Source: Neptunicoccus cionae (GTDB lineage Bacteria; Pseudomonadota; Alphaproteobacteria; Rhodobacterales; Rhodobacteraceae). From it: a stretch of DNA of 64,000 nucleotides. Where the stretch lies: NCBI RefSeq assembly GCF_014643735.1, contig NZ_BMKA01000003.1:434001-498000 (forward strand). Direction: 5' to 3'. Positions 4,601 through 46,993 of the stretch are shown here, one piece after another. Numbering within the stretch: position 1 is the stretch's first letter; every line of letters starts with the position of its first letter. The translations under genes and the position numbers were made by a program. The notes beneath the pieces were generated by a model. It made no database searches. It was given only the letters and a program-made list of their open reading frames with translations, and had not been told where the DNA came from.

Positions 4601-4616
4601 TGGATCAGCCGCAACT

Positions 4617-6841: not shown

Positions 6842-6894
6842 ATGGTGGGTCGTGAGAGGCTCGAACTCCCGACATCTTCGGTGTAAACGAAGCG
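6842..6894 (-). repeat. Left attachment repeat (attL), tRNA-Val 3' fragment
   Basis: These 53 bases equal 46917-46969 exactly. On the minus strand they run from inside the D-arm side of the anticodon stem through the TAC anticodon, variable loop and T arm to the encoded CCA end. The 5' half of a tRNA does not follow (sequence diverges at 6895), so this copy is a displaced fragment and not a tRNA gene. Confidence 0.92.
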
Positions 6895-7390: not shown

Positions 7391-8410
7391 ATGCAAGTTA
7401 CAACAATCGGTGTCGATCTGGCCAAGACCATTTTTCAGGTTCACGGGATCACTGAACATGACGAAGTCGCTTTCAACCGACCTTTGCGGCGCGCTCAGGT
7501 GTTGCCTTTCTTCACGCGGCTCGATCCTTGCCTAATCGGCATGGAAGCCTGTTCCACAAGCCATTACTGGGCACGCGAGCTGAGCAGGCTGGGCCATGAG
7601 GTTCGGCTGATCCCGCCCATGTATGTCAAACCTTATGTGAAGCGTGGCAAGTCAGACGCTATCGACGCCGAAGCAATCTGCGAGGCTGTCACCCGTCCTA
7701 CGATGCGGTTTGTTGAGATCAAGTCGGTTGAACAGCAGGCGCTGCTATCCCTGCATCGCGCGCGCAATCTCATGGTTCGTCAGCGTACGCAGCTGGTCAA
7801 CGCCTTGCGCAGCATGTTGGCAGAGTTTGGCGTGTATATTGCCAAAGGCATCGCACGTATCATCAGTTTTTCGCAGGGCGTGTTGGCTGGCACCAAGTTG
7901 GCACTCCCCGAGATCGCGCAAGACGTAGTTCATAATCTGTGCGGGCAGTTGGACGTTTTGCACGGACAAATGCGTTGGTATGAAACGCGTCTGAGGCTTG
8001 AAGCCAAACGCGATCCCCGGATCAAACTTTTACAAACCATTCCCGGCGTTGGTCCTGTAACGGCCTCTGCCATTGCTGCGAGTATCGGTAGCGGGCATCA
8101 GTTCAAGAATGGCCGTGAATTTGCGGCGTGGCTGGGTTTGACGCCGACAAACCGATCAAGCGGAGGAAAAGAACGATTGGGCCGGATCACCAAAATGGGC
8201 GACCAATATTTGCGCCAATTACTTGTCGTAGGAATGACGTCGCTCGTCAGGCAGACAAAATCCCACCCAGAACGGGCGAACAAATGGCTCACCGCACTTT
8301 TGGAACGTAAGCCTGCGCGCTTGGCAACTGTCGCAATGGCGAACAAAACAGCACGGATCGTCTGGGCGGTTTTGACAAAGAACGAGCCGTACATGCCTCG
8401 AACAACCTGA
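7391..8410 (+). CDS. IS110-family transposase (IS1111 type)
   Basis: The 339-residue DEDD-type recombinase has an N-terminal RuvC-like domain starting TTIGVDLAKTIFQVHG (Asp near residue 9, GMEAC near 51, SDAIDAEAICEA near 90). A coiled middle follows, and then the C-terminal Transposase_20 domain with TIPGVGPVTASAIAASIG and the serine-containing LTPTNRSSGGKERLG. It appears intact. IS110 elements move without flanking duplications by an RNA-guided recombination mechanism. SD AGGAG lies eight bases before the ATG. Confidence 0.93.
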   Translation: MQVTTIGVDLAKTIFQVHGITEHDEVAFNRPLRRAQVLPFFTRLDPCLIGMEACSTSHYWARELSRLGHEVRLIPPMYVKPYVKRGKSDAIDAEAICEAVTRPTMRFVEIKSVEQQALLSLHRARNLMVRQRTQLVNALRSMLAEFGVYIAKGIARIISFSQGVLAGTKLALPEIAQDVVHNLCGQLDVLHGQMRWYETRLRLEAKRDPRIKLLQTIPGVGPVTASAIAASIGSGHQFKNGREFAAWLGLTPTNRSSGGKERLGRITKMGDQYLRQLLVVGMTSLVRQTKSHPERANKWLTALLERKPARLATVAMANKTARIVWAVLTKNEPYMPRTT

Positions 8411-9096: not shown

Positions 9097-10995
9097 TTAA
9101 AGTTCTAAAATTTCCCATCTGTGTACGTCGCGTAGTTTTGCTCTAAGCTCATTTGATAGATGGTCCGCGTGGATAGCCATACAAACAAGATGTCGTGGAC
9201 GACTTGCTCCAACAAAAAGCCTTCGCATTCGCTCAATATTGCGCTTCCCTGTAGGGGCGCTATCAATGTCGCCCGATAGGTAGGGCAACATCTTTTCCAG
9301 ATCAAAGTCATGATGCTTGGTCTCTAGTACGAGTGTAGCGTCGTGCGTCTCACCCTTTACGGAATGAATTGTGGCTACTTCTATCTCTCGGCCATTCGTC
9401 GATCTAAATTTATTGTTGGTAGCCATAGACTTTGACGCGTGCTCACTTTCGGCATAATCGAAAAATTGCCCAGTGCTGGTTGCCTTTATCGTAGGAATAA
9501 CATCCTGAATGTCTCTAGTTTGGGCAGTCCAATTTTCTGAAGTTCCCGCGCCATCTAGCAGCAAGCTGGCAATTGCGCGCCTGAAAGTGCCATAGTTTAC
9601 ATGTGACTTTAGATGTTGATCCAATTTGCTACGCGAATTGATTGCGTTACCGTCAGATCTCAGCATCACAACAATGCCGTCCAGTATTTTCTTGTAAATG
9701 ACCGCGCCCTCCACGCATCCATCGACTTCAAGTATCTCAATCAAACGCGTTGGTTTATCTATTGAGGTAGATTTGCCTTGATTAAAGTCAGCCCAATATT
9801 TTTCTATGTGACCTTGCTGCCCATTAGATGCACCAACGGCCTTTATTTGCTTCCAAGTACCCTCCGGATCGCACTTGGCAACCAATTCGGAGAAGGCGTT
9901 CAACACATTTTTTTGCGTCGTGTCATCGAAAACAAATATTGTATGAGGATGTGCCGAATAGGCATCAGGCCTTTCGGACTGGATTTCGCCAATTCTATTG
10001 TAGCTTAACCTCGTAATCTTTTGCGAGATAGAGCTGCCAAATCGGTGTGTATTTTGAATAGTGTGAAGCGTCGTTGAGTTATTATAGCTCGCGTTCGGTT
10101 GACCGCCACCGATGCCGTCAAATATTGCTTGATCTGGGTCGCCTAGCCGCTGCAAGAGCACATCACTATCGTGGATGATCTTCTGCAGTAAATTGTCCTG
10201 ATGCAGTTGGGTGTCCTGCATTTCATCCACAATCCAGCATGGGAAGCGGGTTGCCAAAATAGAAGGCAACTTTGTATTTTGATCAATAGCACGATCTGCG
10301 ATTGCGTACATATCCCTGTAATTAAAAAGGCCTTCTTCCATCATTTTGGTTTTGAGGGAACACAGCATTTTGCGCCGATCAGAGTGACTTGATGTCGCTG
10401 ACTCCACTTTGGAACCATTTAATCGATGGAAAGTCAGGTCCAAATTTTCACTCGAGAAATGAAGTGTCCCCAAGCAGGATCGAATTTCATCATTGGAAGC
10501 GCCCGACAGTTCCCTTTTTAGATTTCTATACAATCCACGAAGGTCGCTATTATTAGCGAGAATCTTCCCAACAAAATTTTTGGCGACATCTCCGTCCGAG
10601 AATGAAGTGAACGGATATTTTCCACGAACTTTAGGCAGGCCCAAAAATTTATTTACAAATTCTTGAATGGTGCCGATGAAATGCGGATAGGATAGCAACC
10701 GTTCTCCTGCAGGGTGCAAGGTCATCTTTTCAATGATTTCGTGTTTAGCGACGTTGGTATGAGTAAGAACGCATACGCCCTTGTTCCTATGCTCCCACTT
10801 TTGAGCTAACAAAATTAGCTTAGTGGCAACAAGTGTAGTTTTCCCGCTGCCTGGACACGCCTGCACGTCCATCCAGCCCTTAATAGCGTCTCGTCGTTTA
10901 AGATCAAATTTCCATGCACCACCTCCCGAGTTATCACCAGAAAAGTAGCTCTCCAAGGCATCGATGTCTGCTTCAGAAATCCTCATACTATCCAT
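9097..10995 (-). CDS. gajB: Gabija defence protein GajB, UvrD/PcrA-like helicase
   Basis: This 632-residue superfamily 1 helicase has Walker A ACPGSGKTT near residues 46-54, Walker B WIVDEMQDTQ, motif III RLGDPDQAIFDG and the late motif TIHSVKGETHDATLV. In Gabija, GajB senses DNA ends or nucleotide state with GajA and degrades or opens DNA during phage infection. Its start overlaps the end of gajA by eight bases. The ATG at 10995 is chosen because GGAAG precedes it by six bases; an open frame reaches 11025. Longer than the roughly 500-residue Bacillus GajB. A generic UvrD helicase is excluded mainly by the gajA neighbour. Confidence 0.87.
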   Translation of the reverse strand: MDSMRISEADIDALESYFSGDNSGGGAWKFDLKRRDAIKGWMDVQACPGSGKTTLVATKLILLAQKWEHRNKGVCVLTHTNVAKHEIIEKMTLHPAGERLLSYPHFIGTIQEFVNKFLGLPKVRGKYPFTSFSDGDVAKNFVGKILANNSDLRGLYRNLKRELSGASNDEIRSCLGTLHFSSENLDLTFHRLNGSKVESATSSHSDRRKMLCSLKTKMMEEGLFNYRDMYAIADRAIDQNTKLPSILATRFPCWIVDEMQDTQLHQDNLLQKIIHDSDVLLQRLGDPDQAIFDGIGGGQPNASYNNSTTLHTIQNTHRFGSSISQKITRLSYNRIGEIQSERPDAYSAHPHTIFVFDDTTQKNVLNAFSELVAKCDPEGTWKQIKAVGASNGQQGHIEKYWADFNQGKSTSIDKPTRLIEILEVDGCVEGAVIYKKILDGIVVMLRSDGNAINSRSKLDQHLKSHVNYGTFRRAIASLLLDGAGTSENWTAQTRDIQDVIPTIKATSTGQFFDYAESEHASKSMATNNKFRSTNGREIEVATIHSVKGETHDATLVLETKHHDFDLEKMLPYLSGDIDSAPTGKRNIERMRRLFVGASRPRHLVCMAIHADHLSNELRAKLRDVHRWEILEL

Positions 10996-12955
10996 TATGA
11001 TCTTCCGAGACTGAATAAACATCACTTCCGTCTTCTGCAGCGGCCGCCGCGCAAGCCATCACTGCGGATGCAACAGAGGCTTCGGGCGGCACGTTAGTAT
11101 CAGAATGCTCTTCGGTCACGTGATCGATGGCTTCAAGGATGTATTTAGGGAGCCGACTTCGGAGCCGACCTGCGCCTCCCTGTTTCGAATAATTGCGGGT
11201 TAGTTCGCTTGATAAGCTATATGCAAGTTCTGTTTTTTTGCTTGAGCTTTCAATCTCCTTATAAAGAGCTACGGCACGCTCTTCAGGGTCTTCAGGAAGA
11301 TCCGCAAGCTTGCAGTTCAACGAAGTCGCGATTTCCGAATGCAAGCCCGATTTGATCAAACAATATTCAAAGGTCCACTCATCGGAAACCTGCACTCTTA
11401 CATTTTGTTCATGAATTCCTTTTTGGAGGGTCTCAATTTTGGAGGGGACTTGATCCGCTTTTGTCGGATCTAGCCAATATGCCAGATTGCCTCCGCGACC
11501 GTTCTTATTTGGCTTCTTCCTCTCTTTAAAACCATGAGGATTGCCATCTGTTTCTTCAGCTGAAGCAGGCCACAGATCCAAATCACGTAACACAGCAACT
11601 TTAATCGGCATAACTGGGCTACCATCATCAATATTCTTTCGCAGAAAGATTTTTGCGAACCTCGCAAATGCGGTACTTCCAACGTTTACGATACTGACGC
11701 CGTAGTCTTCTAAATTCCGCCCCAATAGTTCGGCAATCGTTGGCAAAAGTATAGCCTCGGCATCACCTTCAACGATGAGAATGCCTCTAGCGAAGAATAA
11801 GTTGGCTTTGGTCACGTCGAGGAATTTTTCAAGAAAAACATAGTCATCTTCATCAAGCAGGGTTTCACCTTTTCGCAACGGAAAAGCTCTCCCTTCATTC
11901 ATTATGATAACGCTCTCTAGCGGTGCTTTTGAAGCTAGGTTTGGGCTATGTGTTGTCAAAAAGATTTGTGGACCCTGCTTATCGCCTTCGGACTGCCAGT
12001 TTTTGAGATATTGAAGGAACTTCATTTGTAGCTGCGGATGGAGGTGAGCTTCCGGTTCTTCGATTAGTAATAGCGGAAACTGTCCTTCTTCTTGTTTTAA
12101 TAAAAGCAACTCAGTAGCCATAAACAAAATATTGTTATAGCCGAGGCCTTGGCGGGGCGTATCCGTATCAAGAACTAGGTTTAGTCGCTCAAGAATATCT
12201 GAAAACGAGCGAGTTTTTTCCGTCTCATTCATCTCTGAGAACGGCTTATCTCCGGTCATCTGAATTGAAGGATTGAATGGCGTGTTTTTAAAAGAAAGTT
12301 TCTTTACCAGTTCAGCAATGTCAGTCTGATTTTTTGTAATGCTTGAATTCTTTTTAAAAGAGCTGCTAGCTTGAATGAACACTTCCAGAAGAGCCTTGAA
12401 ATCATCAGTATCTGGTCGCAACTCTACTTTGGATGCAAGTATTTGTGCGAGCCTCGAAGAACGGCCCGATGAAAGTTCCTGCTCCGCGTCACGCAATGGC
12501 TTTAGATAGGTTGCTGACAAATAGTCCCGAATTTCCCGCTCGATCTGAGGGCCGCTGCCATCAAGTCCGGATCTAAACTCAGTTTGTATGAATCTGGTGC
12601 CGCGCCTTAGATTGTTTGTTAGTTTCGCGGACAGTTTCATATGAAGAACGCTACTACGCTCCTCACCGTTAGTTTTCTTATGGGTCAAGTGTTCCACGAA
12701 AATGGATGCTTGCTCGACCGTAATTCCATCAAATTCTAGTTCGATACTGAATTCATTAGATGGCGAATTGAAATCGTCTTCTTTAACACGATTCCATTCG
12801 GCAGAATTCGTATCTAGCGCCAATCGAATGGCATCTATCAGCGCTGTTTTTCCGGAGTTGTTTTCCCCCGCGATAACATTCAACCTCGGGTTTAACTTCA
12901 ATTTTATAGATGAGAATAGACGGAAATTTCTGATTTTTATATTAGATAAATACAA
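10988..12955 (-). CDS. gajA: Gabija defence protein GajA, OLD-family ATPase-TOPRIM nuclease
   Basis: The 655-residue OLD-type protein starts MYLSNIKIRNFRLF. It has Walker A GENNSGKT (30-37), an ABC-like signature region near GLGYNNILFMATE, Walker B LLLIEEPEAHLHPQ, a switch His in TTHSPNLASKAP, and a TOPRIM domain starting GILIVEGDAEAILLP near residue 390. GajA is a nucleotide-inhibited, sequence-influenced endonuclease that forms a complex with GajB. Together they make the two-gene Gabija anti-phage system. The order gajA-gajB with overlap matches known loci. Class 2 OLD nuclease with helicase partner is the same thing by another name. Upstream 200 bp contain a palindromic repeat and presumably the promoter. 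Confidence 0.88.
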   Translation of the reverse strand: MYLSNIKIRNFRLFSSIKLKLNPRLNVIAGENNSGKTALIDAIRLALDTNSAEWNRVKEDDFNSPSNEFSIELEFDGITVEQASIFVEHLTHKKTNGEERSSVLHMKLSAKLTNNLRRGTRFIQTEFRSGLDGSGPQIEREIRDYLSATYLKPLRDAEQELSSGRSSRLAQILASKVELRPDTDDFKALLEVFIQASSSFKKNSSITKNQTDIAELVKKLSFKNTPFNPSIQMTGDKPFSEMNETEKTRSFSDILERLNLVLDTDTPRQGLGYNNILFMATELLLLKQEEGQFPLLLIEEPEAHLHPQLQMKFLQYLKNWQSEGDKQGPQIFLTTHSPNLASKAPLESVIIMNEGRAFPLRKGETLLDEDDYVFLEKFLDVTKANLFFARGILIVEGDAEAILLPTIAELLGRNLEDYGVSIVNVGSTAFARFAKIFLRKNIDDGSPVMPIKVAVLRDLDLWPASAEETDGNPHGFKERKKPNKNGRGGNLAYWLDPTKADQVPSKIETLQKGIHEQNVRVQVSDEWTFEYCLIKSGLHSEIATSLNCKLADLPEDPEERAVALYKEIESSSKKTELAYSLSSELTRNYSKQGGAGRLRSRLPKYILEAIDHVTEEHSDTNVPPEASVASAVMACAAAAAEDGSDVYSVSEDHNG

Positions 12956-13156: not shown

Positions 13157-15259
13157 TCAGTGTCGCGGCGCTTGTGCGTTCAGACGCATATTCAAGCGGT
13201 TGTCACCTGATGTGTGGATATACAGAGAGCCATCATCTAGTTGATCAGGAAAAACGCCTACCTCAAACAGTAGGCGCTCAAAGTGGCGATTTATAAAGTA
13301 AGTCGCTTCAAACTCCTTCCAACCATCAATTTGATCAATGAACATCGACATATCCGCCGCAAACAAATCTGCCCATTTCAGAAGTTCCACCTGCGACAAC
13401 CGCGTAAGCAGCACTGTTTCGGGGTTTTTAGGGCCGATAAATCTTGACTGTGCAGCCAGTACACGAGTGATCGCACTAAGGAAGGAAGAAACCGAGCTTG
13501 CACAACACTGAAAGAGTTTCTCATGGTCCCCATCCAATTCATAGGCTAGGCCAGCTCCGCGTGTAAGCGCTATCACGGCCTCTAGCTGGTCAACGGCGAG
13601 GTCTGAATAAAAAGAGAGCATATCCACGGTAGGAATAGTCGTCGATATTGAGAAGTAGGTCGAAAGCAACGTATCGTTGTACTGCGCTAACCACCCTTCA
13701 TATTCGTCTTTGTGCTTAAAGCGCACGGTATCAGGAAATTTATTGCTCACAATGCTGTTAAAGGTAACAGTGCCAAGGCAATTCAAAAGCAGCGAAACTG
13801 CCGCGTCTTTGTGGTCAACAATCTCGCTTACGAAGTCTTCTGCGAGATATGCCTTCATGACTAGATGAGTTTTTTGGCCATCTAGTCTGTGCACCAAAAT
13901 TGGAAGGGCCACTCCGTTGGCGTTGCTAACTGTTGAGTTACGCTCCACACTTCGAAGTCCGTCACCACGATCCAATTCTGCGATGGCTTTCTCGTAGTCT
14001 ACGGCAAAGGTTATGCCATCAAGGTTCTTCACATCGCAAATGGCCGCATAAGCCAAAACTACTTCATTTACAGCGTTGGCAACCTTCTGGGCGTATTCTT
14101 GATCAGCAAAATCTTTGAGCGAAACCGAATAGGAAAAGTCCTTTGAGCCTTCTGCAACGGAGGCCTCTGATCTTATGCCGTGCTCATCGTCAGAAGCTTC
14201 AGCAACGAAGTTCTCAATGGCTCCACGTATAGCTGATGAGGTCAAGCCTGAAACTGTTTCGCGAGCCTTATGTCCTAAATCACTTAGGTCTTTTTCTGTC
14301 TTTTCTTGGAGTTGATCCGAAAGGTAAAAAGAAAAGCAACTTTCTACCGCATGGCGCGTGTATTGCTGAGCTTGTTCTGACCAATCTTGCTTGCCACTGC
14401 CAACAATAACCTTCGTCGGTGAAAGCGGTAGAATAACGCATACTGTGCTTTTGGGGCTGGCGAGCAGATACGGCCCCCAACCATTTTCATCTTTTGCGAT
14501 GGCGACACAGTCTGCCAACGGCGCATCATTTTCGGCAATTTTGACTACCTGCCAAGTCAGCGCTTCCAATTGTCGCTTTCGCTCCATCGGAACTAATTGG
14601 TCTTGAAGGATTTTAGTGTGAGCTGATTGCCCCATCCCCGTGAAATTTTTCTCAAACACAGTAACCCAGTCCGCGAACTGTTCGATTGCGTTGGCGTGCA
14701 GTAAGTCAAAGTCTTCTCGTATGCCAAAGTACAAGAGGCGCACAATTGCTTTGGTTGAAATGTTGGTCATTAGATGAAAGCCACGCTTCTCGAACTCCTC
14801 AGTGGCCATCGCGGCAAATTTACTAGGAACGCGGTGTTTGAGCAGCCTTATGCCATCCAGTAATTCAGTTGGGTTATTTATCAGCGTATCAATCGCTGAT
14901 GCCATTTCCGAGGCTCCAACTCCGATCAATTCTCGTAAGTATGCAGCACGCATCGTCAAATGAGCTACAACTTCGCTTGCATCGCTTGACTTGACCTGAG
15001 TGGAAAAATCAGCGCCCCGAAGTTTGTCCACCAAGAACTGTAAGTGCGTCTCATAGTCGGTAATCAGGTCATCTAACGTTGGAGAACCATCAAGTGACGG
15101 TTTAGAGTAAAAATCTCTGGTGGCGGCTGCATCATCGCGTGAAACTGGAACAGGTTTTTTCAAACCGCGCCTATACATCCAAAGCTTGTCGTTTCCGTCA
15201 TTGATCACGAAGCTTTTCAAAAAGTGCCTTGGGATGAAATGTTGCTTTCGTCCTGCCAT
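13157..15259 (-). CDS. DUF4238-domain protein, putative defence component
   Basis: The 700-residue protein begins MAGRKQHFIPRHFLKSFV, the hallmark start of DUF4238 proteins (QHxxPxxxLKxF), which extends to about residue 280. The remaining 420 residues have no recognised domain; no membrane segments were seen. DUF4238 proteins often occur in defence islands and mobile elements, but their biochemistry is not established. It is a single gene between the TIR pair (105 bp upstream) and Gabija (about 200 bp downstream), same strand. It may be a stand-alone system or an accessory of either neighbour. The ATG is the first in the frame and starts the conserved motif. Confidence 0.8.
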   Translation of the reverse strand: MAGRKQHFIPRHFLKSFVINDGNDKLWMYRRGLKKPVPVSRDDAAATRDFYSKPSLDGSPTLDDLITDYETHLQFLVDKLRGADFSTQVKSSDASEVVAHLTMRAAYLRELIGVGASEMASAIDTLINNPTELLDGIRLLKHRVPSKFAAMATEEFEKRGFHLMTNISTKAIVRLLYFGIREDFDLLHANAIEQFADWVTVFEKNFTGMGQSAHTKILQDQLVPMERKRQLEALTWQVVKIAENDAPLADCVAIAKDENGWGPYLLASPKSTVCVILPLSPTKVIVGSGKQDWSEQAQQYTRHAVESCFSFYLSDQLQEKTEKDLSDLGHKARETVSGLTSSAIRGAIENFVAEASDDEHGIRSEASVAEGSKDFSYSVSLKDFADQEYAQKVANAVNEVVLAYAAICDVKNLDGITFAVDYEKAIAELDRGDGLRSVERNSTVSNANGVALPILVHRLDGQKTHLVMKAYLAEDFVSEIVDHKDAAVSLLLNCLGTVTFNSIVSNKFPDTVRFKHKDEYEGWLAQYNDTLLSTYFSISTTIPTVDMLSFYSDLAVDQLEAVIALTRGAGLAYELDGDHEKLFQCCASSVSSFLSAITRVLAAQSRFIGPKNPETVLLTRLSQVELLKWADLFAADMSMFIDQIDGWKEFEATYFINRHFERLLFEVGVFPDQLDDGSLYIHTSGDNRLNMRLNAQAPRH

Positions 15260-15364: not shown

Positions 15365-16282
15365 TTAGGCAGTATCCGTAGATGGTACCCTCAACGATTT
15401 CATCCACTGAAGCGCTCTCGTGAAGGTCTGCTCGACTGTAGTCAAGGCACATTCAAGGTGATTTAAAAAAGGCTCCCAATCGGCGCTCAAAACAATAATC
15501 AATAAAGCTATCCACAAAAGATATGAGAATAGGTTAGGCACGTTTTGTTCGGTGCTTGTAAAGGACTGATACTTTTCGTTTCTTGCACCCTTTCCCAACG
15601 CGACCCACTCAGCTGCGAATACTTGCGCCCCAAATGATCGCTCTAGTCGATGGATTACCTGAAACTTCCCAGTGTTGAGCTTTCCGTAGTTCTCAATAAG
15701 GTTTTTCCATGACCGGCACATTAAGAGGCCGATCAAGATGGGGAAAACAAGTACGAGAACAGTGCTATCACTAAGAACTTTTTCTTTAGCCAAAAAACCA
15801 GAAGCTCCAATGATTGCACCAATTACGGTAATGAAGAATCCGTTTGTAATTTGTCGCCTTTGGATGAGTTGCTCCGAAGACGTTACCATTATCTTATAAA
15901 GCTCAAGAAGTTGGTCTAAATCTTCAGTTTGTTCGGCGAAGCATTCATCAAATTCGGAACTAAAATCATAATAGGATTGAAGTTCACCAAAGTTGTGGCA
16001 ACCAATATCATCGCGGGACAGCAATATGAGATCTTTTTTAAGCTCTGTGGCACGTTCGATTTCCCAAGTTGTGTTTTCGGATTCAGCGCAAGCTTCATTG
16101 TCGTATACAATGACAACCTCCGATGATTGCATCATGCTTTCGGCTTGCTGTTGCCACTTGCTGCCATAAGACTTTTTGAGAATTACTAGATCAACATAGA
16201 TACCGTCAGTGCTCCGCAAAGAAGAAAAGAACACCTTTGCTTCAGTCCTCATACTGGTTCGGTGGATTAGAAATGCGCGCAC
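15365..16282 (-). CDS. TIR-like domain fused to a transmembrane module, putative defence effector
   Basis: Read from the GTG at 16282 (305 residues), the N terminus VRAFLIHRTS...VFFSSLRSTDG followed by SSEVVIVYDN and NTTWEIERATELKKDLILL has the strand-helix order of a TIR-like fold. A Glu sits where NAD-cleaving TIRs carry theirs. A helical linker follows, then RRQITNGFFITV, two hydrophobic helices (about 149-165 and 173-189) and WKNLIENYGKLNTGKFQVIH, a two-helix membrane module seen in bacterial conflict proteins. A third hydrophobic segment lies near 251-266. The GTG is one base after the stop of the TIR gene, so they are probably translationally coupled; an alternative TTG is at 16300 and an ATG at 16252. 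Confidence 0.72.
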   Translation of the reverse strand: MRAFLIHRTSMRTEAKVFFSSLRSTDGIYVDLVILKKSYGSKWQQQAESMMQSSEVVIVYDNEACAESENTTWEIERATELKKDLILLSRDDIGCHNFGELQSYYDFSSEFDECFAEQTEDLDQLLELYKIMVTSSEQLIQRRQITNGFFITVIGAIIGASGFLAKEKVLSDSTVLVLVFPILIGLLMCRSWKNLIENYGKLNTGKFQVIHRLERSFGAQVFAAEWVALGKGARNEKYQSFTSTEQNVPNLFSYLLWIALLIIVLSADWEPFLNHLECALTTVEQTFTRALQWMKSLRVPSTDTA

Positions 16283-16283
16283 T

Positions 16284-16676
16284 TTATCTATGACCTGCAA
16301 TCAATTGCTTCAGATTGGGCCAAGTCCATTTGTATACTTTGTCGCTTGCCGCAGCAGTTGTCGGCTTTGTACAGCTCTTGCCGGAGTACGCGGCAAGCAA
16401 AAAGTACTTCTTTTTTAGTTCTTTAGCTATCCTTATTTCAGCCGCGACACCCTTAGCTGTGTGGGTTTTAGTTCCGCACAACGCTATGACTACATCGATG
16501 TTCTCCATCCTTCTGCGTACCTTTTGTTCCCAATCACCCGTCAAGTGTGCTGTGATCGAATTGTCTTTAAAATCAAAAGGGCTATCCGGGTTTTTCGCTT
16601 GGCCAGCCAAGTACATCTTTGCAGTGCTATCGTTGTCATAGTCGAAACTTACAAATGCTCTTTTTTTAACCGCCAT
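16284..16676 (-). CDS. TIR-domain protein, ThsB-like
   Basis: The 130-residue single-domain protein starts MAVKKRAFVSFDYDND. It continues with WEQKVRRRMENIDVVIALCG, THTAKGVAAEIRIAKELKKK and YFLLAAYSGKS, the layout of small TIR proteins of the MTH538/ThsB type. Glu80 in VAAEI is the likely catalytic residue for NAD+ cleavage. In Thoeris, ThsB makes an NAD-derived signal on infection that activates an effector. AAGGA precedes the ATG pair at 16679/16676; the second gives better spacing. It is the first gene of a two-gene unit with the TIR-like membrane protein at 15365. No ThsA-type SIR2-SLOG or macro-domain partner is present. Confidence 0.75.
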   Translation of the reverse strand: MAVKKRAFVSFDYDNDSTAKMYLAGQAKNPDSPFDFKDNSITAHLTGDWEQKVRRRMENIDVVIALCGTKTHTAKGVAAEIRIAKELKKKYFLLAAYSGKSCTKPTTAAASDKVYKWTWPNLKQLIAGHR

Positions 16677-18902: not shown

Positions 18903-19178
18903 TCACCGCTTCACCGTCAGCGCCGCAATCACCTGTTTATGGTTTTCCCGCATTTCTTCCCGCAGATCCCTGACGTTGCCGTCGAGCCGCTGGATATGCC
19001 CATCGAGATCATCCCGCCGGACGTAGTTGTCTTTGACGTTATCAATCCGCTTGTGCAAATCTCGATCGCCATTTGAGACGCGTCCCGCGAGATTGCGGAA
19101 CGACGCAATCAAAGCTGTTGCAAAGGTCACGCCGAGGCTGATCCCCAGACCAATCACCCATTTGAGATCAGATTCCAT
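18903..19178 (-). CDS. Small membrane protein with coiled coil, lysis-region
   Basis: Read from the ATG at 19178 (GGAG six bases upstream) the product has 91 residues. One transmembrane helix (about 8-26) is followed by a charged helical tail with HKRIDNVKDNYVRRDD and QRLDGNVRDLREEMREN. The form recalls XhlA-like or DUF2730-like phage proteins next to holins. It follows the spanin pair on the same strand. A role in lysis or membrane anchoring is inferred from position. Confidence 0.65.
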   Translation of the reverse strand: MESDLKWVIGLGISLGVTFATALIASFRNLAGRVSNGDRDLHKRIDNVKDNYVRRDDLDGHIQRLDGNVRDLREEMRENHKQVIAALTVKR

Positions 19179-19188
19179 CTGCTGCTCC

Positions 19189-19386
19189 TTAGTCCACGCA
19201 GCCAAAGCGCGCGCATTTCTTCGCTGTTTCTGCGATCCACTCTGCAAGCGGCCGCGCGTTTGTCACCAGATAGCTGGCTGTGGCTTCACTCACGACTGGG
19301 GGCTTGCGCTGGATGTCGGCAAAACTAACACCCTGCCCCGCGCAGGCAGGTAATAAGAGCATCGTCAGTATCACTGCGTGTTTCAT
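19189..19386 (-). CDS. Outer-membrane spanin subunit (Rz1-like lipoprotein)
   Basis: The 65-residue product MKHAVILTMLLLPAC has a short signal peptide with a lipobox ending at Cys15, followed by a small polar mature part. It overlaps the 3' end of the TM-plus-helix gene at 19325 by 62 bases in another frame, the arrangement of many Rz/Rz1 pairs. Spanins join inner and outer membranes in the last step of phage lysis. Proline content is lower than in classical Rz1. Confidence 0.65.
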   Translation of the reverse strand: MKHAVILTMLLLPACAGQGVSFADIQRKPPVVSEATASYLVTNARPLAEWIAETAKKCARFGCVD

Positions 19387-19543
19387 ATTCAATGGTCCTT
19401 GCATCTTGGATCTGCTCCAGCCGATCGGTTGTTAAATCGGCTTGGTAATCGCGCACGGCATCCCAGCGCAGCCACAGCCCGAAGGCCAGAACTGCAACGG
19501 CGACCGCGCCGTAGAGGTAACGTTTTGGAAGGCTGCGGATCAT
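19325..19543 (-). CDS. Inner-membrane spanin subunit (Rz-like)
   Basis: The 72-residue product has an N-terminal transmembrane helix (about 8-25, YLYGAVAVAVLAFGLWL) and a helical periplasmic tail with DRLEQIQDARTIEYETR. It starts in an ATGA overlap with the holin stop at 19540 and overlaps the Rz1-like lipoprotein gene. Placement after endolysin and holin fits the i-spanin of a lysis cassette. Confidence 0.65.
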   Translation of the reverse strand: MIRSLPKRYLYGAVAVAVLAFGLWLRWDAVRDYQADLTTDRLEQIQDARTIEYETRSDTDDALITCLRGAGC

Positions 19544-19761
19544 CTGAACAGACTTGCCAGCGCCTTGCGCGAGGTGCTCCAAAGGTACCAGGCCAATGCG
19601 CCCCCTGCGATCAGCAGAGAGGCCACCAGATCCACAACCGCGGGATCATGAGCCATGGCTTGGGCCAACTCAGGCGGGATCACCCCGCCTTGCTGCACCA
19701 TCCCTGCCAGGAACAAGAGCAGATAGCGCACAAAAGGGGTCAGTTCGGCAGCGGTTTTCAT
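19540..19761 (-). CDS. Putative holin
   Basis: This 73-residue protein has two hydrophobic segments (about residues 10-27 and 43-60, VVDLVASLLIAGGALAWYLW) and a short positive C terminus, as in class II holins. Its start overlaps the endolysin stop by four bases (ATGA). Holins form the membrane holes that release or activate the endolysin. Confidence 0.7.
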   Translation of the reverse strand: MKTAAELTPFVRYLLLFLAGMVQQGGVIPPELAQAMAHDPAVVDLVASLLIAGGALAWYLWSTSRKALASLFR

Positions 19762-20519
19762 AGGAAGAGTCCTTTCAGGGTGGTGAGAATGAGGGACCAG
19801 AGGCCTTTGGGCGGGCCGTCCAGATCGTTTGGGGGGCGGATGGTTTGGATGTGGACGAAGGGGGCCTCTGCGCCCCAGTCGGCGGATTTGAGGGCTTTCT
19901 CAAAAGTCTGGGCGTAGTGTTCAATCAGTTGCCCGACGCTAAGAATGGCGCCCTTGTCGAACTTGGCCTTGTCACCGTTCACGATGTCCCGCGCGCCGAA
20001 GTGATCAAAACCGTCGGGGTGGTCATAGTCCGAGAGCTTGCGCGTGGTGAACAGGCCCTGCCACATGCCTTCCACGGCAATCCGCGCGCTGATGGCAGGG
20101 ATCAGCGCTTTGGACGGATCCGCCAGCAGATCAACACCCACCACCTCGGACAGTTTGGCGTAATTCTCCGCATGGGTAATCTGGATCTGGCCACGGCCGA
20201 ACAGGCCACCCCGCCAATAAGGCGTGCCAACCCAGCTCAGCTGGCCTTTGGCAAAGGCTGCATCCAGCCGCGCAATCACCGCGGCGTCGGACGGATCTTG
20301 ATCCTTGTGGCTGCGATAGACGGTCTCTTTCACAGGATACATGCCGCCGCCGGTTTCTCGAAAGACCTGGGCCAGCACATTGGCCATATGGGGCAGCGGC
20401 AGGCCCTGCCCTGCATCCAGCAAGGCTTCAATCCCCACCACCTGGCGCTGGGAGAGTGCCCCGCCAAACAGCCCGCTGGTGCTGTTGCGCAGGCTGTCAA
20501 AGAACAGTTCTTTCTTCAT
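19758..20519 (-). CDS. Endolysin, GH19-type (chitinase/lysozyme-like)
   Basis: The 253-residue protein carries FRETGGGMYPVKE (Glu as likely catalytic acid) and GLFGRGQIQITHAENY, the signature loop of glycoside hydrolase family 19 endolysins that cut peptidoglycan. A hydrophobic C-terminal stretch (WSLILTTLKGLFL) could bind membrane. It begins the lysis cassette, after a terminator that separates it from the tail genes, so it may also have its own promoter in 20531-20600. Confidence 0.82.
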   Translation of the reverse strand: MKKELFFDSLRNSTSGLFGGALSQRQVVGIEALLDAGQGLPLPHMANVLAQVFRETGGGMYPVKETVYRSHKDQDPSDAAVIARLDAAFAKGQLSWVGTPYWRGGLFGRGQIQITHAENYAKLSEVVGVDLLADPSKALIPAISARIAVEGMWQGLFTTRKLSDYDHPDGFDHFGARDIVNGDKAKFDKGAILSVGQLIEHYAQTFEKALKSADWGAEAPFVHIQTIRPPNDLDGPPKGLWSLILTTLKGLFL

Positions 20520-20530
20520 GTGATTTCCTC

Positions 20531-20558
20531 AAAAAAAAGACCCGCACAAAGGCAGGTC
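20531..20558 (-). terminator. Rho-independent terminator between tail and lysis genes
   Basis: On the minus strand GACCTGC, a six-base loop and GCGGGTC (one G-T pair) are followed by eight T residues. It stands between the last tail gene (20596) and the endolysin start. Confidence 0.8.
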
Positions 20559-20595
20559 GTTAAACGGTCAGGGAGTGGGTAAAGCTGTGCGCCAC

Positions 20596-21030
20596 CTAAG
20601 GCGGGGCAAAGCCTTGAACGGTTGTTTCAAAACCAGTGAGGATGCCATCGATCGCCGCGGAGGTATCCGCAGCGGCAATGGCCACATTTGCCCCCACGCG
20701 CGTGGCCTCGATCAGCGGGCCGATCTGGCGCCAGAGATCCGACTGGAACAGGATGATTTGCGCCAGCTCCTGCGCGGAATAGCCCGTGGCCGCCGCCTCG
20801 GCCTTCATAAAGGGAAAAGCATCGAGATTGGCAGGTTCGGGATCGGCCGCGAGATAGGCTTTCGCCTCGCTCTCTTTTTCCAGATAGACCATCTCCTGCC
20901 CGGGCAGCGCCGTGATGAACTCTTCCCGCTTGGCCCCGATCGCAGCATTCACAAAGCGGGTCGCAGCCGCCTTTGCCTGGTCCAGCTCTCTTTTCTTACT
21001 GGCGGCCGATCTGTTTAAAACCAATGTCAT
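20596..21030 (-). CDS. Phage tail-region protein, function unknown
   Basis: This 144-residue protein has an Ala-rich helical composition (ELDQAKAAATRFVNAAI, YSAQELAQIILFQSDLWRQI) and reminds of proteins that follow tail fibres in many phages (DUF4376-like or fibre-assembly type), without a firm match. It overlaps the preceding gene by four bases (ATGA) and is the last of the tail operon. Confidence 0.7.
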   Translation of the reverse strand: MTLVLNRSAASKKRELDQAKAAATRFVNAAIGAKREEFITALPGQEMVYLEKESEAKAYLAADPEPANLDAFPFMKAEAAATGYSAQELAQIILFQSDLWRQIGPLIEATRVGANVAIAAADTSAAIDGILTGFETTVQGFAPP

Positions 21031-21452
21031 GGCAGGATCACCCTCAATTCGGAGTCAATAAATGGAAACGGCTGGGCCGCCTCGATGACGTAGACGCCGG
21101 CATCGGGCAGATCCACCACCAGAGCCGCCGCCCCGTCTTCAACCGCGTGGTCCAACAGAACCTCCCCACCGGTTTGATCCGCGATCACAATCACCGTGCC
21201 GGCAGGATAAGACGGAAAGGTCAACACCGTGCCGAGGAGCACGGGCTTGGGCGTGACAGGGCGCGGCACCAAAACACCCTCCAAAAGATAAGAGGTCGCC
21301 AGCGCTGGCACAGACAAAGGCACCCCAGCCAGAACTTCCCCTTCAGCGGGTGTCCCAGCCCCAATAACCTGCAAATAACCCTCTGTGGCGATACGGTTGA
21401 CCGCAGTGCTGTCCACTGCGCCCGTGCTCGAGAGTTTGACAAAATACCCCAT
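21027..21452 (-). CDS. Phage tail-region protein, function unknown
   Basis: The 141-residue product MGYFVKLSSTGAVDSTAVNRI is mostly beta-strand in pattern, with no recognised domain. It lies directly after the giant tail protein gene and overlaps the next one by four bases. A role as small tail appendage or fibre component is inferred from position. Confidence 0.7.
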   Translation of the reverse strand: MGYFVKLSSTGAVDSTAVNRIATEGYLQVIGAGTPAEGEVLAGVPLSVPALATSYLLEGVLVPRPVTPKPVLLGTVLTFPSYPAGTVIVIADQTGGEVLLDHAVEDGAAALVVDLPDAGVYVIEAAQPFPFIDSELRVILP

Positions 21453-21454
21453 CT

Positions 21455-24400
21455 CTATCTCCTCACCGAATAGGCCGAGATGCCAATTCTTCTAAAGTTG
21501 TTCTGGAAGCTGTAAGCCCCGCTTGGGCTGTTGACGTCGGGGTGGGCTGTCAGGCGGAACTCCACGTAATCCGCTTTAAACGAGAAGGATTCGATGTAGT
21601 AATAATCGGCCCAGGTGTCATTCAACGCGGGCGCAGAGGTATGAACATCCACCCAAGCCCCCGTCGCTCCGCCCACCGTCAAACGATATTGCACCCTGCC
21701 CCGAACCGGGATCTTGTTTCCCGAGGCAGTGTTGGATCCATAACACCGCATCTGCCAATAGGCAGCGATGTCAAACACCCGGTTTGGCTGGACAGATTTA
21801 TCCCCCTCCTGCCCCTCAAAGGTGACATCCACCACCGTGGCATCATAGTTATACTGCCCCGCACCCCCCACATAATCTTCGCTTCCGTCAGACACAGCAT
21901 CCGCTGTCAAAGAGCTTCTGACGATCAGATCATTAAACTCGGCATCCCCGTTTTTCTTGATGCGCCAGCCCGCGGCCCCCGAGGCAAAATCATCCGACTG
22001 CAAAGGCCCCGAGAAGACCCCCATGCCGCTTGTGATTGCGCCCGTTGCGATATGGCCCGCCACAATGGCATCCGCCGTGATATGCTGGGCCGCCACAGAA
22101 TTCGTGGCCAGTTCAGAGCTGGTCACAGCCCCCGCTTTGATCTCGGTCGCCGTGATCGTATTGGCCGCAATATCATCCGCAACAATGGACCCCGCTGCGA
22201 TCTTGCCTGCCGTAATCGCCCCCGCCGTAATATGCTGCGCATAGACCGCGTTTACAGCCAGTTCAGAGGCCGTCACAGCCCCCGCCTTTATCTCCGCCGC
22301 TGTAATCGTATTGGCCGCAATATCATCCGCAACAATGGACCCAGAAGCGATTTTACCCGCTGTAATTGCCCCGGCTTGGATTTTTGCAGCCGTGATCGCA
22401 TTGGAAGCGATCTTATCCGCAACAACAGCGCCCGCCGCCAGCTTTGCCGTCGTGACAGCCGAGGACGCAATGGCATCAGCCTGAATCGCGCCTGTCAGTA
22501 TTTCGGAGCCGGTGATGAAGGTTGCACCACTTACGGCGTAAGGTGTCGGCTCTGTCGCTGCAGCATGGGTTTTCGCAAGCATAGGCTTGTGCATAAAGAG
22601 ATAACTTGTGGTGCCCGATGTTGTGCCTGACTTGTAAACGATGATCGACACCATAGCCGTGTTCGCAGGCGCTTGCCCCTTAACCCAAAGCCGCGCCCAG
22701 CCGTCAGGGTTATCCGAGCCGCCAGAGTTGACCACATTGCCGGATTGCACAAACCCAAGCCACCCGCCGCTCGCATTGCGGAATGTAACCGAAATAGTGG
22801 CATCACACCGCAGAGCATAAAGATACATGCTCGCCTCATACCACTCCCCCGCAACAGCCGGAAACCCATCAGAAATGCCCCCATTAAGCGCATGGAAGTA
22901 AATGGACTGCGTGCCCGCTGATACACCATTTTGAAACGCATGGGCCGTTTTATAGCTTGTTCCCGCATAATTCGAACCCGCAGAACGGATACTCAACGAG
23001 TGCTCGCCTTTGATATCCGAAGCCCCCAGCACAAAGCTGGAAACACCAGCAATCCAATTGGAATTTTCCATAAGATTGCCGCCGCCGCCAATGGCGAGTT
23101 TCGTTGTCGCAACCGAACCCGCTGCAATCTTATCTGCAACCACCGCGCCCGCAGCCAATTTGGCTGTTTCGATTGCACCCGCCTGGACCTTAACTGCCGT
23201 GACTGCGTTGGAAGCGATCTTATCCGCAATGACTGCGCCCGCTGCCAACTTGGCTGTGTCAACCGCACCCGACGCAATTTTTTCAGCGATGATAGACCCG
23301 TCTACGATCAATTCGCCCCGCGACTTGCGCCGCACTTGAATGTCACCAATGAAACAGTCTGTCGTCCCGTCGTTTCCCTTAATCATGCGAATACGACCGT
23401 AACGATACCCTGATGGGACAACGATCTTATCGGCCAAACGGGTCAATGATGTGGCTGTTACAAAACCGATACCCGCAAACGTGAAGTCCACACCATTCGT
23501 CCCTGTGAAGTCTGGGTTCTTCGATAGTTGCAGATCAACGTAGACCCTACCCGTTCCAGAAATCACCCGTGCTCGATAGGAAAGCCATAATTCCTCACCC
23601 TCAATGTCGAGCGTGAAGATGTTTTTAGATGTTATAACTGTGTAAGCGTCGAAGTATCCGGACAACCTTGCGATATTGGGAGAACCCCAGTTCCCGCCGC
23701 CTATCTGCCAAACCAAATTTGAATTGGCACCCCAAGCCGCGTGATCCGTGAAGTCAGGGTCAAGGTTGAGGTTTTCAAGATACCCGACTGTTAGCTTACT
23801 TGCTGTCACAGCACCCGCTGCGATCTTGTCGGCCACCACAGCGTCAGCAGCGATCTTATCCGCAACAACAGCGCCAGCAGCCAGCTTTGCAGTCTCAATC
23901 GCGCCCGCCTGGACCTTGGCAGCCGTGACAGCATTGGAAGCGATCTTGTCAGCAACGACCGCCCCAGCGGCAAGTTTGGCTGTTTCAATCGCCCCTGCCG
24001 CAACCTTGGCTGTGCTGATTGCCCCGTCCGTGATCTGGGTTCCTGTGATTGCGCCCGTGATCTTGGCCGCAGCCAGATCGGCGATCTGGGCATTGCTCAT
24101 CTGCCCTGTGACCTTGGCAGCCGCAACAGAGGCAATCCGCGCCTCCGCAATTGTGCCCGTCAGCTTGGAGGCATTCAGGCTTGCCAAACGCGCTTCAACC
24201 ACAGTCCCGGACAGTTTGGCCGCGTCCAGTGCGCCAATCTGTGCGTTGGTCATTTGCCCTGTGATCTTGGAGGCCGCCAGAGACGCCACACGGGCCTCCG
24301 GCAGTGTTCCCGTCAGCTTTGCAGCGTCTAGGCCCGCGATCTGTGCACTTGTCATTTGGCCCGTGACTTTTGCGGCAGCAATATCTGCTATCTGCGCATT

Positions 24401-27076
24401 TGTAAGCTGACCGGCGATCTTGGCCGCAGACAGGTCTGCAATTTGTGCATCCGTAAGCTGCCCCGTGACCTTGCCGGCAGAGACCTCGGAAAGTCGCGCA
24501 TCAACAACAGTCCCCGTTAGCTTTGCCGCATCGATCTCGGCAAGCTGTGCATCCGACAATTGCCCCGTTACATCAACAGCCGCCACTTCGGCCGTCCACA
24601 CCCCGCCATGGAAGCGGTAGAGTTTGCCATCCACCGTAAACACCACCAGCCGGCCCTCATAGTTCCCCACAGTTGGCAAAGCCGAGACAATCTCGGGCGG
24701 GCGAATGCTGGAGGCAAAATCCTCGGAGACCAGGCGGATGTCTTGCGTGGAGACAGCAACCCAAGCCGTCCAGGACACAGGCCGCGCGGTGCCGGTGATA
24801 TATTTCGCGCGACATTCATAGGCTGTGGCGGCCACAAGTCCGGATTCAACCAACAGCTCGCCTTCCTCAAAATCACGGCTCTGCGCGCGGCTCACAATGG
24901 ATGTCTGTCCTGCAATGCGGATCTGGAACTTGATCCCGATGATATCTTCCACCGTGCCGTTCCAGGTCATCACCAGCGCCGCGCGCCGCTGCTGCCCCGC
25001 ACTGTCCTGCACCGCAGCCGCCTGCGCCTGGAAGCCCACCACGCCCTGCGCGCTCGGGCGCACCGGAAGCAGTGGCACCGGTACAACCGGCACATAATCC
25101 GAGGTATGGTCCCAAGAGCCATGATCTGCCGGATCCACCTCTGTGAGATCCACAATCACATCACAATTGGGCAGATCGATCAGACCATCCACGCGGAACT
25201 GTTTGGCATCGTAGCCATTGCGGATGCTGGTCCAGGTCACCACATCGCCGGGCTCAATCAGACGGAACCGCGCTGGCAAAGAATGGGTATGCCGGCGGGC
25301 ACGCCGCGCCGCCGCCAATTCCCCTGTGAGCAACCGCTGGGCTTGGGCTGGAAAGGGCACAAAAGACAGCTGCACATCGGTCAACAACCGACGGCCGCCA
25401 TCCTCGAGTTCATAATTCGGGTTATAAAGCGGCGGGGTGGAACGCATCACATAGCCCTCATCGGGCGAAGGATAGGTCGCAACCACCCCGTTGACCGTAT
25501 CCGACAGACCAAAAAACGGCGTGAAGCTTTGCGGCGCAAGGCTCAAAATATCCGCATCGCTAAAATGCGCGATCGGCGCATCCGGTGCCCCCACATAGAT
25601 CTTGAAGATCCCGCCCACTTCACTCATCCGCCCCGCACAAGCGGTCAGGATCGCTTCAAAGGCCGAACCGATCTCGGAGTTGACGGTCACCTCACCCGCA
25701 CAGCGGTAAATCGGCTCAAGCCCGTCTTCGCCCTCAATCTCCGCGCGGCATTTCTCAATCTGGGCAATCCAATGGGCCGCCGGCAGGCGCGCAGTGCTCA
25801 ACCCCTGCAACCCGTAAAACCACTGTGGGACAATCGTATCAAAGGCTAGATCCGCCGTATAAACCACATAGCCAGACCCCGCATCCGTGGCACCAGCACC
25901 AATCATAATCTCCAGCTGGGGATCGGTGAGGCTGGTCAGATCATAGTCCGTGATCTCCACAAAGCCGCCCGCACCGCCGCCTTTGATTTCCGGCTGGATT
26001 TCACCGCCGCCTTCGCCTGCCGCGAAGATCCTTTCCTGACCCTCCGCGCCATTGCCATGGGGCGCAAAGCCCGAGGCAACCCCGATGTGATCATCGGACG
26101 CCCGCGCAATCCCCCCCGCCGCCGTCCAGGTTGCGATCACCGTTGCGCCATCTTTGAGGATCACCGTGGTGGCAGCCCCATTGGCATTGGTCAGACCGCC
26201 ACCGCCGCCGCCCACCAGCTTCAGGGACAAAGTTGATTTATCCGCCCCCAGCGCGACGGTGGAATTTTCGTCAGTGCCCCCCGCAGCGCCCGGATCGCGG
26301 TAATAAAACCCGCGTGCCAGATTATAGGCCTGCACCGCGGGCAAAGCATCGCCGTCCCCGCCCCAGCTTTGCGGAGCATCCCAACGCTGGGGACCTGATC
26401 CGCCCTGGCTGCTGTCCTTGCTGATGTCGTAGAGTTTCACCCCGTTGAGCACGAACTTGGAGGTGGGAAAGCCGGTGAAGATTTCCGCATTCACCCGGAA
26501 GGTCACCACCGCATAAGCAATGCCGCGCCCCACCCGTGTGGCCTCATAGATCCGGGGCGCACCCGAGTTCACCGTGCCCGTCAAAAATTCATCGGCAAAG
26601 AGCTGGGTGCCATCATGAAAGCGGATCCAGGCATGATCTTTCTCGCCCTCACGGTATTCCACAGCCGCCAGACCCCGCTCATCGCCGGTGTCTTCCAATG
26701 TGACCGCGCGCCCCTCGATAAACCAGCGGTTCAGCCCCGCCACAGGCAGATCCGACAGCGCAATCACCTGGGTGTAATACGCATTGGGCGTGCCGCCCGC
26801 TTCACCCCATTCCGAATGCCAGACCAGCGAACCCGCAGAGAGCCCGGGCCCCAAGACAAAAGAGCGCGGCACACTGCCCCCGGTGCGCACCGAGCCCTGG
26901 ATCGAGAAGGGTGTCGATCCGCCCTTCTTGGAAAAAGCCATGGCCAGCGCAGAAACACCAAGTTGCACGGCTGCGCGCAGTAAAAAATTGCCCACTGCAA
27001 TCTGGAAGGCCCCAACCGTGATGGTCCAGGAGCTGATCAAAGAAATGGTGGACGCGATAGCGGTAAAAACAGCCAT
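21455..27076 (-). CDS. Tail tip / central fibre protein with long repeat region
   Basis: The 1873-residue protein starts MAVFTAIASTISLISSW with hydrophobic segments, then a large domain typical of gpJ-like tip proteins with a fibronectin-like section. About residues 825-1100 are imperfect repeats of the kind VTGQLTDAQIADLSAAKI and IETAKLAAGAVVADKI. Two beta-rich modules that may bind sugars follow (about 1105-1250 and 1300-1480), separated by more repeats, then a second repeat block (about 1525-1690) and a C-terminal domain with GWRIKKNGDAEFNDLIVR. It probably recognises the host surface. The start at 27076 has GGAAT eight bases ahead and follows the GNAT stop by four bases. Confidence 0.85.
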   Translation of the reverse strand: MAVFTAIASTISLISSWTITVGAFQIAVGNFLLRAAVQLGVSALAMAFSKKGGSTPFSIQGSVRTGGSVPRSFVLGPGLSAGSLVWHSEWGEAGGTPNAYYTQVIALSDLPVAGLNRWFIEGRAVTLEDTGDERGLAAVEYREGEKDHAWIRFHDGTQLFADEFLTGTVNSGAPRIYEATRVGRGIAYAVVTFRVNAEIFTGFPTSKFVLNGVKLYDISKDSSQGGSGPQRWDAPQSWGGDGDALPAVQAYNLARGFYYRDPGAAGGTDENSTVALGADKSTLSLKLVGGGGGGLTNANGAATTVILKDGATVIATWTAAGGIARASDDHIGVASGFAPHGNGAEGQERIFAAGEGGGEIQPEIKGGGAGGFVEITDYDLTSLTDPQLEIMIGAGATDAGSGYVVYTADLAFDTIVPQWFYGLQGLSTARLPAAHWIAQIEKCRAEIEGEDGLEPIYRCAGEVTVNSEIGSAFEAILTACAGRMSEVGGIFKIYVGAPDAPIAHFSDADILSLAPQSFTPFFGLSDTVNGVVATYPSPDEGYVMRSTPPLYNPNYELEDGGRRLLTDVQLSFVPFPAQAQRLLTGELAAARRARRHTHSLPARFRLIEPGDVVTWTSIRNGYDAKQFRVDGLIDLPNCDVIVDLTEVDPADHGSWDHTSDYVPVVPVPLLPVRPSAQGVVGFQAQAAAVQDSAGQQRRAALVMTWNGTVEDIIGIKFQIRIAGQTSIVSRAQSRDFEEGELLVESGLVAATAYECRAKYITGTARPVSWTAWVAVSTQDIRLVSEDFASSIRPPEIVSALPTVGNYEGRLVVFTVDGKLYRFHGGVWTAEVAAVDVTGQLSDAQLAEIDAAKLTGTVVDARLSEVSAGKVTGQLTDAQIADLSAAKIAGQLTNAQIADIAAAKVTGQMTSAQIAGLDAAKLTGTLPEARVASLAASKITGQMTNAQIGALDAAKLSGTVVEARLASLNASKLTGTIAEARIASVAAAKVTGQMSNAQIADLAAAKITGAITGTQITDGAISTAKVAAGAIETAKLAAGAVVADKIASNAVTAAKVQAGAIETAKLAAGAVVADKIAADAVVADKIAAGAVTASKLTVGYLENLNLDPDFTDHAAWGANSNLVWQIGGGNWGSPNIARLSGYFDAYTVITSKNIFTLDIEGEELWLSYRARVISGTGRVYVDLQLSKNPDFTGTNGVDFTFAGIGFVTATSLTRLADKIVVPSGYRYGRIRMIKGNDGTTDCFIGDIQVRRKSRGELIVDGSIIAEKIASGAVDTAKLAAGAVIADKIASNAVTAVKVQAGAIETAKLAAGAVVADKIAAGSVATTKLAIGGGGNLMENSNWIAGVSSFVLGASDIKGEHSLSIRSAGSNYAGTSYKTAHAFQNGVSAGTQSIYFHALNGGISDGFPAVAGEWYEASMYLYALRCDATISVTFRNASGGWLGFVQSGNVVNSGGSDNPDGWARLWVKGQAPANTAMVSIIVYKSGTTSGTTSYLFMHKPMLAKTHAAATEPTPYAVSGATFITGSEILTGAIQADAIASSAVTTAKLAAGAVVADKIASNAITAAKIQAGAITAGKIASGSIVADDIAANTITAAEIKAGAVTASELAVNAVYAQHITAGAITAGKIAAGSIVADDIAANTITATEIKAGAVTSSELATNSVAAQHITADAIVAGHIATGAITSGMGVFSGPLQSDDFASGAAGWRIKKNGDAEFNDLIVRSSLTADAVSDGSEDYVGGAGQYNYDATVVDVTFEGQEGDKSVQPNRVFDIAAYWQMRCYGSNTASGNKIPVRGRVQYRLTVGGATGAWVDVHTSAPALNDTWADYYYIESFSFKADYVEFRLTAHPDVNSPSGAYSFQNNFRRIGISAYSVRR

Positions 27077-27080
27077 GATC

Positions 27081-28168: not shown

Positions 28169-28193
28169 GGGATCCCCTCCTAAAGTTAGAGTG

Positions 28194-31748: not shown

Positions 31749-31800
31749 GAGAGGGCCTTTCGAAGCTGGTTTAGGGATAAGTCGGAAGCGCTGCGCCCGA

Positions 31801-32232: not shown

Positions 32233-32254
32233 AGCCGAACTCCAGTTTTAAAGA

Positions 32255-33038: not shown

Positions 33039-33041
33039 AGT

Positions 33042-46916: not shown

Positions 46917-46993
<77 letters not shown>

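Follow-up and report, generated by a model that had tools for sequence, protein, structure and literature searches.

Two adjoining minus-strand genes, gene A and gene B, in a 64,000-nucleotide stretch of the Neptunicoccus cionae genome (hereafter the window) pair a predicted ThsB-type TIR protein with a member of the 8xMP membrane protein family, and the pair is carried as cargo by a prophage. Our reading is that A and B constitute a Thoeris-like abortive-infection module, composed of a TIR enzyme and an 8xMP membrane effector, and we give this reading an even chance of being right. An earlier note on this DNA had placed a two-gene TIR unit at 15365..16676, with Glu80 in the first product and one base between the genes, and its coordinates and frames proved right.

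Gene A (16284..16676, minus strand; ATG at 16676, stop at 16284) codes for 130 amino acids, and its product would be nine residues longer if translation began at the in-frame ATG at 16703. It matches the Pfam family ThsB_TIR (PF08937) at 9.1e-10, with 39.3 bits relative to a cut-off of 21.2, and its sequence identifies it as a TIR protein. The PADLOC ThsB model matches it weakly (1.3e-5), a STALD match at 0.11 lies under the STALD cut-off, and no NCBIfam family matched gene A or gene B at E up to 1. Residues F8, F11, Q26, D38, G76, E80, W117 and W119 are invariant in all 37 aligned, hand-picked TIRs. Among them is the putative catalytic glutamate Glu80 (codon at 16437..16439, minus strand), which we take to be catalytic as carried over from known TIR NADases. 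Gene A therewith has the features of a Thoeris ThsB, namely a TIR protein with a conserved, putatively catalytic glutamate.

Gene B (15365..16282, minus strand; 305 amino acids) runs from a GTG at 16282 to a stop at 15365, a single base (16283) lying between the stop of A and this GTG. An alternative start is a TTG at 16300, and the GTG is preferred because the relatives of gene B at loci L021 and L032 start at the GTG position. The product is predicted to fuse a TIR-like domain (approximately residues 1-115; 15938..16282, minus strand) to an 8xMP domain (residues 126-265; 15488..15907, minus strand). The TIR-like fold of the N terminus, which the earlier note had assigned by eye, is borne out by several results. 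Specifically, the N-terminal domains of both full-length relatives of B (L021:3881-4720 and L032:6001-6840) pass the cut-offs, for ThsB_TIR in both and for TIR_2 in L021; a B-type N-terminal profile of three sequences aligns with a TIR profile across 55 columns (97.5% probability); and the AlphaFold2 model of this part of gene B matches solved TIR domains. Residues 4-115 of gene B itself match TIR_2 at 1.4e-4, under the Pfam cut-off, and the PADLOC ThsB match is weak (0.022). Judged from relatives, profile and model, the N-terminal part of gene B has a TIR fold and is probably best described as a degenerate TIR-fold domain. Its Trp73-Glu74 is kept in all three fused proteins (gene B, L021, L032), and Glu74 (codon at 16061..16063, minus strand) aligns with Glu80 of A.

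The remainder of gene B belongs to the 8xMP family PF24838 (1.6e-32; 112.7 bits relative to a cut-off of 30), which carries the title "octameric membrane protein family", the octameric state being taken from that Pfam title alone. The 'two-helix' membrane module of the earlier note thus already has a family name, and it contains three hydrophobic segments, seen as hydropathy peaks near residues 157, 184 and 257; the model places helices at residues 119-166, 174-217 and 241-266. Residues Y129, K130, V133, R143, K206, E214, E225, W226 and E245 are invariant in all 62 rows of an 8xMP alignment that holds B and 61 of the 86 listed 8xMPs, those omitted being three from plasmids and 22 more, of which many are extended at the N terminus by a long stretch. 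Pfam recognised no ligand-binding domain in the 8xMP part, and a sequence search found no solved relative of it. Towards its C terminus the model resembled assorted helical bundles only, and these were rejected as relatives. Foldseek matches among PDB and viral models were weak (best 7.1e-3 and 6.2e-3). In mainly open-access literature we found no defence role for the 8xMP family and, going by titles and the starts of abstracts, no paper describing TIR with 8xMP. Four 8xMPs (L031:5245-6465, L045:5161-6429, L083:5317-6429 and L074:4648-6465) carry N-terminal extensions of approximately 220-460 residues with no Pfam match over cut-off, which are possibly other sensor domains.

The pairing of TIR and 8xMP genes recurs well outside the window. 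We scanned a single genome from each species, using an 8xMP profile of eight sequences headed by B and one peptide pattern. Of 87 loci the best 80 were retained, which comprise 79 bacterial or archaeal loci with an 8xMP gene and one (L095) without an 8xMP match. Within this set, and with TIR and 8xMP profiles trained on ORFs from these very loci, a TIR gene touches the 8xMP gene in 38 of 79 loci (33 upstream, 8 downstream, 3 both) and none does in the other 41; co-occurrence of the two genes elsewhere, on which the earlier note's idea of a unit depended, is thus observed. By comparison, a TIR lies immediately upstream of only 5 of 562 other genes in the same loci. The stop-to-start gaps of the 33 upstream TIRs are also tight, falling between -59 and +10 in 32 and reaching 139 in one. 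Chance neighbourhood of A and B was rejected on these grounds, 33/79 standing against 5/562 together with the tight gaps. One upstream TIR is a weak match (L074, 7e-6), and 52 TIR ORFs lie at most 1.5 kb from the 8xMP gene with one farther away (809,804 bases). Where the upstream protein is not a TIR, no family recurs: among 20 of 21 such proteins of at least 100 aa (one of 118 aa was left out), the 25 Pfam families listed, out of 28, are found in one protein apiece. Downstream of 8xMP, 30 chosen proteins include TIR_2 in five and DUF4062 in three. By record titles, the hosts with a touching TIR include Bacteroidota, several proteobacterial groups, Chloroflexi (Dehalococcoidia), Planctomycetes, Acidobacteria, Ignavibacteria, Firmicutes, Patescibacteria and archaea. 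A TIR gene also touches a stand-alone 8xMP gene on plasmids or viral contigs (L001, L002, L004, L005, L006, L008). A single-sequence scan (P0002) gave no match in viral contigs or phage records, and the fused-type alignment gave none in viral contigs. After the Novosphingobium TIR-8xMP pairs of L002 and L029 there is a small gene (L002:5453-5926, L029:6423-6950), a possible nucleotide binder; that of L002 has a weak YpsA/SLOG hint (0.015, below cut-off) and its L029 counterpart has nothing at 0.01.

In 36 of the 38 TIR-touching loci the paired 8xMP protein itself has no TIR domain. This indicates that the core unit is TIR plus 8xMP and that a fused TIR is an accessory, and on this ground the earlier note's idea of B's TIR-like part as an indispensable sensor of the signal was rejected. 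Fusion of TIR to 8xMP has three clear cases (the window, L021 and L032). The full A-B layout repeats in the latter two, both Bacteroidota, where a third TIR gene comes next and the first (A-type) TIR ORF opens, by eye, with a hydrophobic stretch; the third TIR gene and this hydrophobic start would fit a membrane-bound assembly. Three observations speak for a mechanism without any diffusible messenger, in which TIR-TIR (or TIR-8xMP) contact and growth of a TIR filament gate the membrane protein directly: the genes are very tightly coupled, three proteins carry the fusion, and the hydrophobic start of the L021/L032 ORF could anchor a TIR. Its difficulty is that direct gating has to account for the 36 paired 8xMPs without a TIR domain of their own, and a further difficulty arises from the caspase-linked TIRs described below.

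Type I Thoeris has a ThsA with SIR2 and SLOG domains, and type II has a ThsA with TM and macro domains and uses His-ADPR. The earlier note had found neither SIR2-SLOG nor macro effectors here, which holds for the eight proteins scanned (A, B and six neighbours), where no SIR2, SLOG, macro or Peptidase_C14 match exceeds the Pfam cut-off. The unit therefore lacks the SIR2-SLOG ThsA of type I. With type II it shares a TIR paired with a membrane effector, but B has no macro domain and a different membrane module in place of TM-macro. The study cited for type IV Thoeris is reportedly that of Rousset et al. 2025. The earlier note counted SIR2-SLOG and macro effectors alone as Thoeris partners, a view since overtaken, as passages of PMC12847820 describe type IV as a TIR with a caspase-like protease that is activated by N7-cADPR. 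The likeness to type IV lies in the ThsB-type TIR and in the TIR plus effector operon; the difference is that no caspase occurs among the eight proteins and that the window's effector is membrane-borne and fused to a second TIR-like domain. Overall the unit resembles Thoeris in its proposed working but does not have the effectors that define types I, II and IV. Type III is present as a name in an excerpt of PMC12390725, and since the unit is set apart from types I, II and IV only, it could be the same as type III. Pairs of TIR and SLATT genes are similar in that a TIR stands beside a small 2TM protein, as in L018, L125 and L127, but they differ in that the partners in these loci match SLATT while gene B matches no SLATT profile at E up to 1. 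The possibility that B is a SLATT protein was rejected, there being no Pfam SLATT match and a probability of 0.2% between 8xMP and three-SLATT profiles. As a side observation, a QueC-like protein (PF06508) precedes the TIR gene in three operons, L125:771-2778, L126:733-1902 and L127:575-2596, with an ORF of 235-241 aa ahead of QueC in all three; the TIR is followed by a double SLATT protein (SLATT_3 + SLATT_1) in L125 and L127 and by a different gene in L126.

A tree of TIR domains links the 8xMP-associated TIRs to those found beside caspases. The tree has 84 rows, of which 52 stand beside 8xMP, 8 beside a caspase, one beside both, 19 are other TIRs and 4 were added; rows were TIR matches with E up to 1e-15 and at least 80 residues from non-duplicate loci, the B domains of L021 and L032 appearing twice. 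Caspase-linked and 8xMP-linked TIRs intermix in this tree, which is a further likeness to type IV. Specifically, TIRs that stand beside caspases in L014, L016 and L017 fall together with 8xMP-linked ones from L002 and L029 (support 0.82; 0.998 with L154), L010 and L013 group with L060 and L012 (0.94), and the caspase-linked L027_8734 groups with L101 (0.92). Gene A forms a pair with L036 (0.93) and sits among 8xMP- and caspase-linked TIRs in what is a tree without any TIR of published type IV Thoeris. The caspase profile picked out 14 proteins, and Peptidase_C14 exceeds its cut-off in all ten scanned, eight of them in TIR-bearing loci. Five related clusters (L027, L067, L091, L150, L152) combine a caspase with an 8xMP, again in likeness to type IV; a Pfam check was made on four, and L027, L150 and L152 are among the clusters in which Peptidase_C14 is present. 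TIRs are also present in L027 and L152, and none was detected in the fetched pieces of L067, L091 and L150. The L027 cluster (L027:5308-10092) consists of a TIR, an 8xMP, three more TIR-containing genes and a caspase-like protease, and is preceded by a gene that is possibly of Rossmann type, by eye. In L067, L091, L150 and L152 the 8xMP adjoins the caspase-like gene, and a caspase-activated membrane effector is conceivable.

The adjacency of related TIRs to caspases, taken with the N7-cADPR activation of type IV caspases in PMC12847820 (passages thereof), favours a soluble signal, and we regard gating by direct contact as unlikely. The caspase loci also bear on a reading in which the TIRs themselves kill by depleting NAD+, with the 8xMP acting as their sensor, anchor or restrainer at the membrane. 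Direct killing by TIR NADases is described in passages of PMC12847820, and the glutamate is kept in both TIR parts of the unit, as this reading would have it. Related TIRs are nevertheless shared with caspase-effector loci, and an 8xMP accompanying a caspase where no TIR was detected (L067, L091, L150) fits an effector better, so that we consider NAD+ depletion a decidedly improbable account.

In the mechanism that we favour, a TIR enzyme acting with an 8xMP effector, gene A would sense a phage product and its TIR domains would assemble. The assembled TIRs would convert NAD+ to an ADP-ribose-type signal through Glu80, and this signal, or TIR assembly itself, would activate the oligomeric 8xMP part of B. 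The activated 8xMP might then breach the inner membrane and stop phage growth. The TIR-like domain of B may co-assemble with A to recruit the effector, or may tune or bind the signal. The phage trigger and the role of the glutamate are carried over by analogy from known TIR systems, and the TIR-made signal is suggested by the exchange with caspases among related TIRs. The membrane breach is suggested by 8xMP being a membrane protein and by its likeness to two systems: the TM-macro ThsA of type II Thoeris, for which passages of PMC12847820 and PMC11204291 give membrane perturbation as a reported outcome, and SLATT proteins, for which an excerpt of PMC9503650 predicts control of membrane permeability by an ADPr derivative. 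Membrane killing by B is plausible. A broader proposal is that TIR plus 8xMP is a widespread uncharacterised class of Thoeris, in which an ADPR signal opens an oligomeric pore that is exchangeable with caspases among closely related TIRs, the pore of the window having its own TIR for co-assembly at the membrane; this we put forward tentatively, as possible but doubtful. If it is true, TIR immune enzymes across many phyla would have a partner in 8xMP, a membrane effector family for which we found no defence role in print. Whether one signal drives two death programmes would become directly testable where closely related TIRs have a caspase, an 8xMP or both beside them, and the fused variant would offer a single protein for studying the coupling between TIR domain and membrane effector.

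The TIR link is a property of part of the 8xMP family and not of the whole. The genome scan favours TIR-linked 8xMPs, given that seven of the eight profile rows are TIR-linked, one peptide pattern was used and the best 80 of 87 loci were kept. In the gammaproteobacterial class around genome G001, 8xMP exceeds the cut-off in 11 of 274 genomes, and in this sample, which was not chosen for TIRs, a TIR is adjacent in one of ten (G052), the seed genome aside. With a fused-type profile, a touching TIR occurs in 5 of 15 fetched non-seed loci from the class of the Novosphingobium genome (385 genomes; L129, L132, L133, L135, L145) and in one of four loci (L152) from the class of the Flavobacteriales genome (395 genomes). 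The contig of L149 starts inside a likely fused-type 8xMP, which a TIR follows. The rarity of an adjacent TIR in samples not chosen for TIRs indicates that the 8xMP family overall has other uses, and it lends something to the view that the pair is not antiviral at all, the 8xMP serving envelope stress or homeostasis under regulation by the TIR protein. Plasmid and viral-contig carriage and clusters with caspases and extra TIRs argue against this, as does the location of the unit in mobile, low-G+C cargo beside Gabija, and we hold a non-antiviral role to be very improbable.

That location is seen directly. An exact 53-bp direct repeat, with its left copy at 6842..6894 and its right copy at 46917..46969 in the 3' part of tRNA-Val, marks the prophage attachment site, and an integrase (45879-46907) stands beside the right copy. 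The prophage genes include integrase, terminase, portal, head protease, tail and lysis genes. From the left repeat to a D12 methyltransferase gene lie an IS110 gene, the separate defence system Gabija (GajA at 10988..12955, PADLOC 5.7e-210; GajB at 9097..11025, 9.6e-170; both minus strand), a DUF4238 protein and the TIR-8xMP unit, which agrees with the earlier note's placement of the unit in a prophage beside Gabija. The G+C content of Gabija, the DUF4238 protein and the unit is 43-47% as compared to 58% for the phage body. The unit is thus prophage cargo. Promoter and terminator patterns are no commoner than in shuffles. The DUF4238 gene (13157..15259, minus strand; 700 aa; PF14022, 8.2e-11) begins 105 bp after B, and its match spans only approximately the first 300 of the 700 residues; it is possibly another defence gene. 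As a regular third component of the unit it was rejected, being absent from the families of the 30 chosen downstream neighbours of 8xMP.

Flanking genes were sampled as at most four ORFs of at least 200 aa per locus (37 TIR-8xMP and 35 other 8xMP loci). PADLOC families numbered 347 among 120 proteins flanking TIR-8xMP loci versus 53 among 116 proteins flanking the others, a contrast that is suggestive only, because the models overlap: the counts are of families and not of proteins, and they are inflated by methyltransferase models that overlap. For positions 28000-45000 of the prophage, no close relative turned up among phage records. An IS110-family transposase gene (7391-8410) lies immediately within the left prophage end, and outside this end is a second, shorter integrase-like ORF (3985-4740) that is perhaps the remnant of another element. 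Finally, an 11.6-kb stretch of viral contig L159 is 93% identical to positions 18903-30510 of the window, which covers tail and lysis genes, and the contig stops short of the cargo.
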